In this document: in pieces, positions 15,090 through 53,196 of the stretch
Layout: each line of letters opens with the position of its first letter
Numbering within the stretch: the stretch's first letter is position 1
NCBI GenBank assembly: GCA_902617025.1
Contig: CACMVB010000004.1
Span: 26,537-90,536 of the forward strand
Origin: an uncultured Pelagibacteraceae bacterium
GTDB lineage: Bacteria; Pseudomonadota; Alphaproteobacteria; Pelagibacterales; Pelagibacteraceae
Direction of reading: 5' to 3'
Length of the DNA: 64,000 nt
Notes under the pieces: model-generated
What the model was told of the DNA's origin: nothing
The model's input: the letters and a program-made list of their open reading frames with translations, nothing else
Databases searched by the model: none
Made by a program: the position numbers and the translations under genes

Positions 15090-16382
15090 TTATGCAGCCA
15101 ATGCTTGCTTGATATCTGCAACAATATCGTCTGGATGTTCTATGCCAATTGATAATCTGACATAACCTGGAGTGACACCAGCAGCTAACATTTCCTTTTC
15201 TGTAAGCTGACTATGCGTTGTTGTTGCCGGGTGAATTGCCAAACTTCTAGCATCACCAATATTCGCTACGTGGTAAAGCATTTTTAAGCTATCAATAAAT
15301 TTAGCTCCTGCTTCTTTCGTTCCTAGATCCATACCTATTAAAGATCCATAACCACCTTGCATATATTTTTTTGCTCTATCTCTAATTTCACCTTGATAAT
15401 TAGTTGGATAGATAACCTTTTTAACTTTTTTGTGACCATCTAAGAAATTCACAACTTTCTCTGCATTACTGCAATGTTGTTTCATTCTTAAAGCTACAGT
15501 TTCCAAACCTTGAATGATTTGGAAAGCATTGAATGGACTTAAAGGAGCACCTAAGTCTCTCAATAAAACCACTCTCGCTCGGATGACAAATGGAATATTA
15601 GCACCAGTTAATTGTGGAACTGCGTCTGCCCAAACTGCACCATGATAACTTTGATCTGGTTCATTTAATAGAGGTTGTCTTTTTCTATCTTTAATCCAAT
15701 CAAAATTTCCTCCATCTACAATTATTCCTCCAATTGAAGTACCGTGACCACCAATATATTTTGTCAAAGAGTGCATTACAATTGCAGCTCCATGAGCTAA
15801 AGGTTTACATATTACCGGTGAAGCTGTGTTATCGATAATTAAAGGAATACCTTTTTTTCTACCGATATCAGAAACTTCTTTAATTGGAAAAACACGAAGA
15901 TATGGATTTGGAAGAGTCTCACCATAATAAGCTCTTGTCTTCTCATCAGTTACTTTTTCAAAGTTTTTTGGATCCGCAGGATCTGCAAATCTAACTTCAA
16001 TACCTTGTTGCCTTAAAGTATTTTTGAATAAGTTAACTGTACCTCCGTATAAATCAGTAGAAGCAACAATGTTATCTCCAGCTTGTGCTAAGTTTTGAAT
16101 ACACATTGCTGACGCTGCTTGGCCTGATCCCACTGCACATGCCGCTACACCGCCTTCAAGCGCTGCAACTCTTTTTTCTAGCACATCTACAGTTGGGTTC
16201 ATGATACGTGTGTAAATATTACCAAATTCTTTTAGACCAAATAAATTTGCAGCATGTTCTGCATTTTTAAATTGGTAAGAAGTTGTTTGATAAATAGGAA
16301 CTGCTACAGCTGTTGTAGTAGGATCAGCTCTGTAATCACTACCATGTAAGCCAATAGTTTCTGGATGTTTAAAATCAGCCAT
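15090..16382 (-). CDS. metY: O-acetylhomoserine aminocarboxypropyltransferase (sulfhydrylase)
   Basis: PLP enzyme of the Cys/Met metabolism family that makes homocysteine (or methionine) from O-acetylhomoserine and reduced sulfur. Motifs: SDYRADPTTTAVAVPIYQTT near the N-terminus, NIYTRIMNPTVDVLEKRVAA, the PLP-phosphate/stacking region STDLYGGT, PLIIDNTASP, and the Schiff-base lysine in MHSLTKYIGGHG. Length 430 is that of MetY rather than the shorter MetB/MetC. Ribosome site AAGGGGG lies 7 bases before the ATG. The roughly 300-base leader carries SAM riboswitches and two tiny ORFs, the second overlapping this start by 8 bases. Confidence 0.95.
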   Translation of the reverse strand: MADFKHPETIGLHGSDYRADPTTTAVAVPIYQTTSYQFKNAEHAANLFGLKEFGNIYTRIMNPTVDVLEKRVAALEGGVAACAVGSGQAASAMCIQNLAQAGDNIVASTDLYGGTVNLFKNTLRQQGIEVRFADPADPKNFEKVTDEKTRAYYGETLPNPYLRVFPIKEVSDIGRKKGIPLIIDNTASPVICKPLAHGAAIVMHSLTKYIGGHGTSIGGIIVDGGNFDWIKDRKRQPLLNEPDQSYHGAVWADAVPQLTGANIPFVIRARVVLLRDLGAPLSPFNAFQIIQGLETVALRMKQHCSNAEKVVNFLDGHKKVKKVIYPTNYQGEIRDRAKKYMQGGYGSLIGMDLGTKEAGAKFIDSLKMLYHVANIGDARSLAIHPATTTHSQLTEKEMLAAGVTPGYVRLSIGIEHPDDIVADIKQALAA

Positions 16383-16422
16383 TGATTTTCCCCCTTACTG
16401 TTTCTCTTATCGTTTCGTTCAT
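16375..16422 (-). CDS. Tiny leader ORF 2 (15 aa), overlaps metY start
   Basis: Encodes MNETIRETVRGKING. It has a well-spaced ribosome site (GGAG, 5 bases before ATG), its ATG shares ATGA with the stop of leader ORF 1, and its stop TGA lies 3 bases into metY (ATGGCTGA). A ribosome finishing here would be placed on the metY start. Too short for homology; real translation is inferred from the ribosome site and the overlap geometry. Confidence 0.6.
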   Translation of the reverse strand: MNETIRETVRGKING

Positions 16423-16479
16423 TTTTTCTCCGTCTTTCTGGAGAAGAATGAACGAAGCATAATTCTGTTCATCTTCTCC
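16417..16479 (-). promoter_or_regulatory. Mutually exclusive hairpin pair over two ribosome sites
   Basis: Three segments read on the minus strand: A GGAGAAGATGAAC (16479-16467), B GTTCATTCTTCTCC (16453-16440), C GGAGAAAAAATGAAC (16431-16417). A pairs with B over 13 bp with one bulged U and a 13-base loop; B pairs with C over 13 bp with a 1x2 internal loop and an 8-base loop. A holds the ribosome site and ATG of leader ORF 1, C those of leader ORF 2. B can bury only one at a time. The pairing is seen directly; its use as a switch is inference. Confidence 0.7.
16419..16472 (-). CDS. Tiny leader ORF 1 (17 aa) behind the SAM-V-like aptamer
   Basis: Encodes MNRIMLRSFFSRKTEKK, a short basic peptide. 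Its ribosome site AAGGAG is the 3' end of the SAM-V-like aptamer, 3 bases before the ATG (rather close). It ends in ATGA overlap with leader ORF 2. Its coding sequence contains segment B of the hairpin switch (codons for RSFFS), so a translating ribosome would open that structure. Translation is inferred. Confidence 0.55.
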   Translation of the reverse strand: MNRIMLRSFFSRKTEKK

Positions 16480-16535
16480 TTTTTAGTACTTCGGCATTTG
16501 CCAGGTGTACAATATGGTTCAAATACCCGGTTTAA
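16475..16535 (-). ncRNA. SAM-V-like riboswitch aptamer
   Basis: Minus-strand sequence with ATTGTAC, CCTGGCAAATGCC and the A-rich tail CTAAAAAGGAG, resembling the SAM-V aptamer known from Pelagibacter leaders of sulfur amino acid genes, whose conserved 3' end contains the Shine-Dalgarno. CCGGGT can pair with ACCTGG (one G-U). In the known class SAM binding hides the ribosome site. The match is by eye, so class assignment needs a covariance-model check. Confidence 0.7.
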
Positions 16536-16549
16536 TTTCAGATTGTTCC

Positions 16550-16579
16550 AAAAAAAAACCACCGGCTAAAGCGGTGGTC
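16550..16579 (-). terminator. Riboswitch-controlled intrinsic terminator
   Basis: On the minus strand ACCACCG pairs with CGGTGGT around a 7-base loop and is followed by nine T residues (A run at 16550-16558 on the + strand). The loop-side bases CGCTTTAGC (16573-16565) are fully complementary to GCTAAAGCG at the 3' end of the upstream SAM-II-like aptamer, giving a 9-bp antiterminator that would disrupt this stem. Confidence 0.85.
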
Positions 16580-16591
16580 TAAGTGACTAAT

Positions 16592-16646
16592 GCGCTTTAG
16601 CAGGATTTATAAAGCGCCCGCAAGTTGCCTTAACTCAGCGCTAAAA
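16592..16646 (-). ncRNA. SAM-II riboswitch aptamer
   Basis: Minus strand shows the SAM-II pattern: AGCGCTGAGTTAA, TTGCGGGCGCTTTATAAAT, then CTGCTAAAGCGC. P1 is AGCGC with GCGCT. This fits the compact pseudoknotted aptamer known from alphaproteobacterial metX/metA-type leaders. It sits just inside the predicted transcription start and just before a terminator, so SAM should favour termination. SAM-II followed by SAM-V is a known Pelagibacter arrangement. Confidence 0.85.
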
Positions 16647-16648
16647 GA

Positions 16649-16678
16649 TTTATAACAAGAATTTCAGGATTTTGTCAA
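16649..16678 (-). promoter_or_regulatory. metY promoter
   Basis: Perfect -35 TTGACA (16678-16673) and -10 TATAAA (16654-16649) on the minus strand with an 18-base spacer. The start would fall around 16642, at the 5' edge of the SAM-II-like aptamer. The -35 lies 8 bases beyond the gshB stop. This is the best consensus promoter in the window. Confidence 0.8.
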
Positions 16679-16685
16679 CTGTCAA

Positions 16686-17603
16686 TTAAATATTATTCCA
16701 GAACAATTTTGCAAGGTTTATTCCAGATAAATCTTTGTATGCAGCGAGACCAGTAGGGCTAGTAACATTAATATCACCAATTAATTTCTCTTGTACGAAG
16801 TCTATTCCTGCAAAATATATATTATTTTGCACTAACAATTTTCCAATCGCTTTGCTTGCATTAATTTCTTTCCTTGTGAGTTTTGTTAATTTCGCTTTAG
16901 CTCCTTTGCTCATATTAGATAAAATACTTCCTTTTTTAGGTATCCTAGAAATAGCACCCACAATCTTTCCTTTTATGATAAAAACCCTTTTATCACCCTT
17001 AGAAACACCAGGTAAAAATTTTTGAAAAAATAAATGATTATTAGTTTTTATTAATTTTCTAATTTTGCTTGAGTTAAATGTTTTAAATAAAATTACGTTA
17101 TTACCACTAAAACCATTAATAGGTTTTGTTACAACAGCTTTGTGTTTTTTAAAAAAATTTTTAATTTCTGAAAGGTTTTCACTGATTAAAGTTGGAGGCA
17201 TATACCTCATGAGATTAATTGAAAATAGCTTTTCAGATATATTTCTTACAGCAAAAGGGTGATTTATTATCTTAACCTTCTTAGAAATATGGTTTAGTAA
17301 GAATGTTGTATATAAATAACGATTATCAAAAGGCGGATCGTTTCTGATTAATATAATTTTAGATCTTTCTAAATCAAAACTAACAGTTTTAAGCAATGAA
17401 TAAAATTTCTTTTTATTTTCATTGATTTTTATATGTTTACAAAAAGCTAAAACTTTTCCATTCAAAAAACTCAAATTTTCTGGTTCAAAATAATATATTT
17501 TGTAACCTCTTTTTTGCGCTTCAGATGCTAAAAGAATAGTTGTATCAGTTTTGATATTTACTTTTTTAAGATCAGAACCCTGAATAGCTAAAATTTTCTT
17601 CAT
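16686..17603 (-). CDS. gshB: Glutathione synthetase (ATP-grasp)
   Basis: Joins glycine to gamma-glutamylcysteine. The N-terminal domain MKKILAIQGSDLKKVNIKTD and IILIRNDPPFDNRYLY correspond to the GshB N domain; the ATP-grasp part has VVTKPINGFSGNNVILF, QKFLPGVSKGDKRVFIIKG and the Mg-binding end VQEKLIGDINVTSPTGL. Length 305 is close to the usual 315. It overlaps gshA by 32 bases, so the two are one transcript. The identity relies on these motifs and on the gshA neighbour. Confidence 0.88.
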   Translation of the reverse strand: MKKILAIQGSDLKKVNIKTDTTILLASEAQKRGYKIYYFEPENLSFLNGKVLAFCKHIKINENKKKFYSLLKTVSFDLERSKIILIRNDPPFDNRYLYTTFLLNHISKKVKIINHPFAVRNISEKLFSINLMRYMPPTLISENLSEIKNFFKKHKAVVTKPINGFSGNNVILFKTFNSSKIRKLIKTNNHLFFQKFLPGVSKGDKRVFIIKGKIVGAISRIPKKGSILSNMSKGAKAKLTKLTRKEINASKAIGKLLVQNNIYFAGIDFVQEKLIGDINVTSPTGLAAYKDLSGINLAKLFWNNI

Positions 17604-53031: not shown

Positions 53032-53046
53032 AGAGGAAAGTCCTCT
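53032..53046 (+). ncRNA. 5' hairpin preceding the glycine riboswitch
   Basis: AGAGGA (53032-53037) pairs with TCCTCT (53041-53046) around AAG. It sits at the very 5' end of the predicted transcript, a few bases before aptamer 1. It may stabilise the mRNA end or take the place of the P0 leader pairing known in other glycine riboswitches. Confidence 0.55.
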
Positions 53047-53047
53047 G

Positions 53048-53196
53048 CGTAACGGGAGAGACCATTTAGGCGCCGAAGGAGCAACCACCCCGGAAACTCT
53101 CAGGCAAAAGGACCGTTGCCGTAATAACTCTGGAAAGCAGGCGAAAGCCTCACCGAAGGATTAAATCTCTCAGGTACATAGACAGATGGGGTTAGA
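53048..53196 (+). ncRNA. Tandem glycine riboswitch upstream of gcvT
   Basis: Two glycine aptamers in series. Aptamer 1 (about 53050-53118) shows CGGGAGAGACC, GCCGAAGGAGCAA and GGAAACTCTCAGGCAAAAGG then ACCG. Aptamer 2 (about 53122-53195) shows TAACTCTGGAAAGC, CACCGAAGGA and CTCTCAGGTACATAGAC. These match the conserved glycine aptamer core. P1 of aptamer 2 can form from TAACTC with GGGTTA. Glycine riboswitches on gcvT are ON switches in known cases, including SAR11. Confidence 0.93.

Follow-up and report, generated by a model that had tools for sequence, protein, structure and literature searches.

A candidate sequestor relay behind a SAM-II/SAM-V tandem riboswitch at metY of an uncultured SAR11 bacterium

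SAR11 bacteria rank among the most numerous cells of the ocean and possess few regulators. SAM riboswitches are a major component of the response to sulfur limitation measured in them (PMC5069961), and the closest described system to the one reported here is the bhmT leader of HTCC1062, in which a SAM-II aptamer (quoted KD of 1.2 uM, PMC5069961), an intrinsic terminator and a SAM-V aptamer follow one another (PMC11508383; PMC5069961). The bi-mechanism tandem riboswitches of Sherlock 2022 include 120 original and 149 later SAM-II/SAM-V tandems, and share with the leader described below the order of a transcriptional control followed by a translational one, both for one ligand (available text of PMC9481103). 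At metY of HTCC1062, SAM-V only is listed in the available text of PMC2704228, and that of PMC5069961 names SAM-II only at bhmT and metX. Such a direct SAM-V holds an SD-like GGAG in helix P2a, where SAM binding brings two nucleotides of the linker into pairing with part of the SD (PMC6061858). The available text of PMC11508383, PMC5069961, PMC2704228, PMC6061858 and PMC9481103 describes SAM-V as occluding the adjacent ribosome binding site and does not mention the elements that we call arms B and C. A further parallel is the B12 riboswitch of ppe2 in Mycobacterium tuberculosis, where a translated short ORF overlapping the gene start is needed for expression (available text of PMC11260477).

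Here we analyse the metY leader in a 64,000-nt stretch of DNA (the window) from an uncultured member of the group. We propose that this leader is a three-step, SAM-responsive OFF device for metY, a reading that we hold to be reasonably likely. The tandem type as such was known, as the original prediction had said; what comparison of sequences adds is a relay that appears to be a new variant of the SAM-V platform.

The SAM-II/SAM-V tandem and its antiterminator

Read directly from the sequence, the device extends from 16678 to 16375 on the minus strand, and begins with a promoter, a SAM-II type aptamer, an antiterminator, an intrinsic terminator and SAM-V, in that order. Its parts are as follows.

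16649-16678, minus strand: promoter, TTGACA (16678-16673), 18-nt spacer, TATAAA (16654-16649); 11 of 12 consensus letters
16593-16642, minus strand: SAM-II type aptamer, sub-threshold with RF00521, its pairs nearly invariant in 34 sequences
16638-16642 with 16613-16617, minus strand: SAM-II P1, AGCGC with GCGCT
16620-16623 with 16597-16601, minus strand: SAM-II P2 pseudoknot, UUGC with GCUAA
16565-16601, minus strand: antiterminator, GCUAAAGCG (16601-16593) with CGCUUUAGC (16573-16565), covarying
16550-16578, minus strand: intrinsic terminator, ACCACCG (16578-16572) with CGGUGGU (16564-16558), T run to 16550
16473-16537, minus strand: SAM-V aptamer, RF01826
16467-16479, minus strand: arm A, GGAGAAGAUGAAC, the SD-like 3' end of SAM-V and putative antisequestor strand
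16419-16472, minus strand: uORF1, MNRIMLRSFFSRKTEKK and stop, AUG 3 nt behind GGAG, frame not conserved
16440-16456, minus strand: arm B, UUCGUUCAUUCUUCUCC, anti-SD, complementary to A and to C
16414-16431, minus strand: arm C, GGAGAAAAAAUGAACGAA, second SD and uORF2 start
16375-16422, minus strand: uORF2, MNETIRETVRGKING and stop, 15 codons, its UGA overlapping the metY AUG (AUGGCUGA)
16390-16396, minus strand: metY SD, AAGGGGG, inside uORF2, assigned from sequence
15090-16382, minus strand: metY, O-acetylhomoserine sulfhydrylase, 430 aa (TIGR01326, 575 bits, cut-off 495)

The consensus promoter of the original prediction was confirmed. A simple promoter scan gave no match at the leader, as it demands T at the last −10 position, which here reads TATAAA; however, 84 of 102 distinct leaders from the genus and its relatives scored 11 or 12 of 12, and shuffled sequences never exceeded 10. 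The −10 element ends 6 nt upstream of SAM-II P1, and the SAM-II element sits directly at the predicted transcript start. The upstream neighbour (16686-17603, minus strand) is a glutathione synthase gene (NF003573, 284.6 bits), and the tandem promoter starts about 10 nt or less from its stop codon.

Searches with the Rfam models gave a divided answer on the two predicted aptamers. SAM-V was found where it had been placed, behind the terminator at 16537-16473, with 68.6 bits against a cut-off of 41 (RF01826, E 4.2e-9 over the whole window); its identity is certain by this score, and it would be expected to bind SAM. For SAM-II, RF00521 gave 21.4 bits at 16651-16577, below the cut-off of 36 (E 0.01 in 381 nt). 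This cut-off was passed by none of the 15 loci scanned, the known HTCC1062 bhmT tandem included, so that for SAR11 members the model lacks sensitivity and its cut-off does not define the class. The anatomy of the aptamer is conserved: across 34 aligned sequences, 99.7% of the cells of P1 (AGCGC/GCGCU) and of the P2 pseudoknot (UUGC/GCUAA) are paired, with almost no variation. The SAM-II-like element is thus identified by its conserved anatomy and its place in the tandem, and we infer that it binds SAM.

The predicted 9-nt complementarity is exact, in that GCTAAAGCG (16601-16593) is the full complement of CGCTTTAGC (16573-16565). With G-U allowed and the best register taken for each leader, which flatters L228, all nine pairs are kept in 112 of 128 distinct tandem leaders, eight in 11, seven in 3 and six or fewer in 2; the complement is missing in two metY leaders of the genus-level groups g3 and g6 (L230, L232). 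In the 34 aligned SAR11 sequences, which represent ten such groups, 94.4% of the nine-pair cells hold standard pairs, against 22 to 50% in slid registers. The antiterminator also covaries across this set, with 8 double-change cells compared to 0.7 in shuffles (0 of 500 as high). These fall in two columns, one changing from GC to UA or AU and the other from CG to AU, and are clearest in three leaders of g4 (Pelagibacter) that carry GCUAAAUAG and CUAUUU.

The antiterminator overlaps the P2 strand of the aptamer, as the predicted competition requires: the first letters of GCUAAAGCG are shared between the two, so SAM binding and antitermination should be mutually exclusive. In the first step of the device, without SAM, the GCUAAAGCG strand at the 3' end of SAM-II would pair with CGCUUUAGC and block the terminator; with SAM, the same strand would be locked in the P2 pseudoknot and the terminator would form. 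Equilibrium folding of the window favours the antiterminated form, so that any response to SAM would have to be settled while the RNA is being transcribed.

A second SAM-II-like core (GCCGAUUUGNUCC..UUGC..GCUAAAAAGGA), with no terminator, was seen up to about 90 nt upstream of SAM-V on Pelagibacter metY (L002, L016, L051 and other g4 metY loci). Pairing is possible between the 5' strand of this core and AAAUCGG just before SAM-V. The strict pattern occurs in 18 of 36 loci, and U(C/U)GG(U/C)AGGC in 30 of 36. The available text of PMC2704228 lists these metY loci with SAM-V alone.

Candidate competing arms beyond the SAM-V aptamer

SAM-V had been predicted to end in the ribosome site. It does end in an SD-like purine stretch, AAAAAGGAG, with GGAG at 16479-16476; as the ribosome site of metY, however, this stretch is misplaced, since the metY AUG lies 93 nt away, where a direct SAM-V has its gene start within a few nt. 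The canonical platform, with a gene start no more than about 10 nt from the SD-like stretch, is therefore absent, and the sole AUG beside GGAG is that of uORF1. We see three main layouts in the genus of the window. In the direct layout, the SAM-V GGAG stands 5 to 8 nt from metY; in class H, to which the window belongs, 91 to 95 nt separate the SD from metY; in class B, the distance is about 1180 nt and accommodates bhmT (352 aa, Pfam S-methyl_trans).

We consider that a competing pair of hairpins beyond SAM-V probably passes the signal on to the real metY start site. In this second step, the GGAG of arm A would act chiefly as an antisequestor strand and not as a working ribosome site. Without SAM, A would pair with B once B is transcribed, leaving C, with the real SD and AUG, open. 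With SAM, A would be held by the SAM-V pseudoknot (P2a, CC with GG), and B, being free, would pair with C and close it. The scheme presumes SAM binding at this aptamer, this order of folding, and a closed B:C state in vivo. Compared to the bi-mechanism tandems in the available text of PMC9481103, the translational half would differ in using a sequestor/antisequestor relay together with a coupled short ORF.

Both helices are strong in the window. As duplexes, A:B (13 pairs, one bulge) reaches −19.6 kcal/mol and B:C (16 pairs, slightly interrupted) −20.8 kcal/mol, and in each case 0 of 400 dinucleotide shuffles were as good. In all 11 representatives, A:B was better than dinucleotide shuffles (0 to 7 of 400 as good). 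Within the 66-nt stretch from A to C, A:B is the minimum-energy structure (z = −3.7, 1 of 200 shuffles as good). When the window is folded, A:B reaches −18.8 kcal/mol before C is transcribed, and once C is included the two states have energies of −22.0 and −22.6 kcal/mol. Across 45 distinct class H leaders the two states average −18.6 and −18.7 kcal/mol (mean difference 0.0, range −3.0 to 3.3), the equality in energy that a bistable switch requires. In the window fold, the GGAG of C is unpaired with a probability of 0.10-0.14, which fell to 0.0 once the GGAG of A was blocked. In the minimum-energy fold C is mostly paired even with A free, so the ON state would need A:B to form first. In g4 relay leaders, that is, those with arms B and C behind SAM-V, A:B exceeds B:C in strength by a wide margin (mean difference −11.9, n=3).

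Evidence for compensation in A:B comes from exchanging B arms between leaders. For 27 distinct A arms, the own B gave −18.5 kcal/mol and foreign B −12.75 kcal/mol; without the SD letters the values were −8.98 and −4.96 kcal/mol, and with one arm per group (n=11) −17.68 and −11.80 kcal/mol, with 0 of 20000 permutations as good in each case. The own B was the single best partner of A in just 10 of the 27. For B:C, the full set likewise separated own from foreign (−12.65 vs −10.49, 0 of 20000), but 1740 of 20000 permutations were as good with one leader per group, and within g4 alone 1460 of 20000 were as good, or 16150 of 20000 beyond the SD. The fit of B to any SD is in part automatic, because the CUCC in B is required for pairing with A. 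Within class H alone, neither the A:B nor the B:C helix shows a double change. The g4 relays entered through these energy swaps and were excluded from pair counts, as the MAFFT alignment misplaced their arms. We conclude from these comparisons that the predicted A:B hairpin is well supported, and that its compensation extends over metY, bhmT and metE-like leaders, the HTCC1062 bhmT leader included; the predicted B:C pairing beyond the SD is solid in the genus of the window only, and weak elsewhere.

As A:B is the strongest and best conserved element, it might instead set the SAM threshold of SAM-V, in the manner of an anti-aptamer, or stabilise the mRNA, with the masking of C by B being secondary. 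Four places in our set (L294, L296, L297, and L025, which is the same place as L299) carry the full tandem and the A:B hairpin, with neither an SD-AUG (C) nor bhmT behind, and the persistence of A:B at these five loci would fit such a role; they could represent an orphan leader or a small RNA. However, the anti-SD at the end of B matches the downstream SD, and C lies close behind B in relay loci that have a downstream gene and are not of the long g3/g6 type. We regard this alternative as quite improbable.

A second hint that SAM-V holds arm A comes from the first letter after GAAC, taken to lie in the linker whose expected partner in P2a is GGAG. This letter is C in 45/45 relay aptamers of the genus of the window and U in 13/13 direct ones, a correlation that within the genus may represent a single evolutionary event. 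In g4 it is C in four relay loci and U in 46 of 49 direct loci; the g4 relay L287 has U, contrary to the trend.

Two short reading frames and the metY start

The original prediction had joined the tandem to a short-ORF device. That link stands, but the device is better read as the competition of A:B with B:C and a second ORF coupled to metY. It could alternatively be that uORF1 has a genuine ribosome site in the SAM-V GGAG, and that at low SAM ribosomes on uORF1 melt B:C and pass to uORF2 and then to metY. Such a riboswitch-uORF-gene chain of termination and reinitiation is known from ppe2 of M. tuberculosis (available text of PMC11260477). Of 60 distinct class H-type leaders, 40 have a uORF1 that terminates at the start of uORF2, as this alternative would have it; in the others uORF1 is just 2 or 4 codons long (5 leaders), forms one fused frame with uORF2 (6) or terminates at some other place (9). 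AUGA and AUGAGUAA would supply stops in the other frames regardless. The spacing of the AUG behind GGAG also varies: 3 nt in class H, 0 nt in g9 and g12, and 11 nt in four HTCC1062-like leaders (L284-L287). None of 25 g4 relays has an AUG within 9 nt of GGAG, the AUG being at least 10 nt away or absent. Class B is the sole layout with a usual distance, mostly 6 nt, and in 17/17 of its loci uORF1 runs uninterrupted to the bhmT start and ends on it; a conserved leader peptide of about 45 aa in g3/g6 likewise speaks for translation. Taken together, translation of uORF1 as the general mechanism seems to us rather unlikely, though it may contribute in class B and in g3/g6. Because the uORF1 frame is not conserved and those g4 relays have no AUG at 9 nt or less, we favour RNA pairing, and not uORF1, as the feature that relay leaders appear to share.

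The long version in g3 and g6 (L234, L238, L241, L243) has a GGAG that opens a conserved leader ORF of about 45 codons; this ORF runs into the bhmT start region, and arm B is distant.

In the third step of the pairing device, ribosomes starting at C would read the 15 codons of uORF2 and stop on the metY start codon, with hand-over to metY by translational coupling. The overlap of the uORF2 stop with the metY start (AUGNNUGA) was found at 67/67 class H, 17/17 class B and 1/1 variant loci, hence at 85/85 relay loci on metY, and at 0/49 direct loci. From the uORF2 AUG to metY there are 37, 40 or 43 nt, always in frame. Constraint on the peptide is only mild: of the possible single-letter alleles, 24 of 86 nonsynonymous, 12 of 27 synonymous and 0 of 4 stop alleles are seen. 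A conserved uORF2 peptide was therefore rejected. As the overlap is invariant and the peptide variable, translational coupling is suggested rather than a working peptide. Coupling is experimental in ppe2 and would be an extrapolation here; ligand and aptamer also differ, and the available text of PMC11260477 describes no A/B/C competition. We also dropped the idea that uORF2 is a remnant of a deleted bhmT C-terminus, as class B has a separate uORF2 behind bhmT with its own AAGGAGG.

It is also conceivable that SAM-V occludes only its own GGAG, that the hairpins beyond are chance or a scar, and that metY uses AAGGGGG independently of SAM-V. The metY SD is indeed good and partly open in the predicted fold, and the weakness of B:C compensation outside the genus would agree. 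However, with A:B compensated over 27 distinct arms, the two states balanced in class H and the uORF2 overlap invariant, the arrangement is too conserved for a scar, and we consider this plainer account very improbable.

Distribution of the layouts and the HTCC1062 construct

SAM-V is present in 253 of 397 genomes of the family draw. Among the loci fetched by then, 141 have a SAM-II-terminator region (128 distinct); the 59 that lack one are mostly metY and mmuM loci of g4. The tandem on metY is no oddity of the genome of the window: all 14 g1 and 8 g2 fetched loci with SAM-V directly on metY share it. The window's MetY has HIMB058 and SCGC AAA795-E07 among its closest named relatives; we take both to belong to SAR11 subclade II.

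The insert of the window was matched in 90 of 169 genomes of its genus: at full length in 68, as the uORF2 part behind bhmT in 18, and in pieces in 4. Of the full-length genomes 65 were fetched; tallies are by fetched locus, so that the 67 class H loci represent 65 genomes, two of them counted twice. A bhmT protein occurs in 20/169 genus genomes and is absent from the window's own genome (98.8% complete). On the metY tree, direct loci lie on one side of a branch, and classes H and B are interleaved. A single deletion leading from class B to class H is unsupported, as the tree holds 12 changes, and requires no fewer than 6 for H and 5 for B. Comparison of class B (L082-L098) with class H at the same metY locus suggests repeated loss, gain or exchange of the bhmT cassette.

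In other letters, the relay layout recurs upstream of bhmT in class B, in g9 (L229) and in g4 including HTCC1062, and upstream of a metE-like gene in g1 (L099, L100) and g12 (L228); the gene at L228 has weak NCBIfam matches to methionine synthases and no Pfam match. A further search of g4 gave 30 loci, comprising 19 relay leaders with a bhmT start, 5 direct bhmT, 4 relay-like loci with no downstream gene and 2 that were not parsed.

Compared to the window, the HTCC1062 tandem has the same antiterminator, with 8 of 9 pairs, and arms A, B and C downstream; it stands on bhmT, whereas the window's tandem stands on metY with uORF2 coupled to it. The available text of PMC11508383 puts the T run at 82-90 and probe sites at 128-147 and 98-117, in exact agreement with the HTCC1062 leader, and the 177-nt RNA so numbered ends ...GGAGAAAAGAGGCCUAUG, at a putative decoy AUG. 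In that leader, arm B lies at about 204, and BhmT starts at 233, 58 nt further on and in another frame. The 177-nt RNA thus lacks arms B and C; our guess is that it was made to stop there in the belief that the AUG was the start codon. We lean, if only slightly, towards the view that in many SAR11 tandems, HTCC1062 bhmT included, the SAM-V GGAG is an antisequestor, and that separate arms B and C, about 35 to 70 nt further on, form the true platform.

If so, the 177-nt in vitro construct (PMC11508383) would be missing the working part of the translational switch. The same source reports SAM-II to be inactive in full-length HTCC1062 RNA, silenced by the linker. The conserved antiterminator could explain this inactivity at equilibrium, which would give the puzzle a testable explanation. 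The relay would also mean that one small aptamer class serves two translational platforms, direct occlusion and a sequestor relay, and that both have been exchanged at the same gene within one genus.

Elsewhere in the window, at 53043-53125 on the plus strand, we see a glycine riboswitch aptamer (RF00504, 62 bits, cut-off 32).
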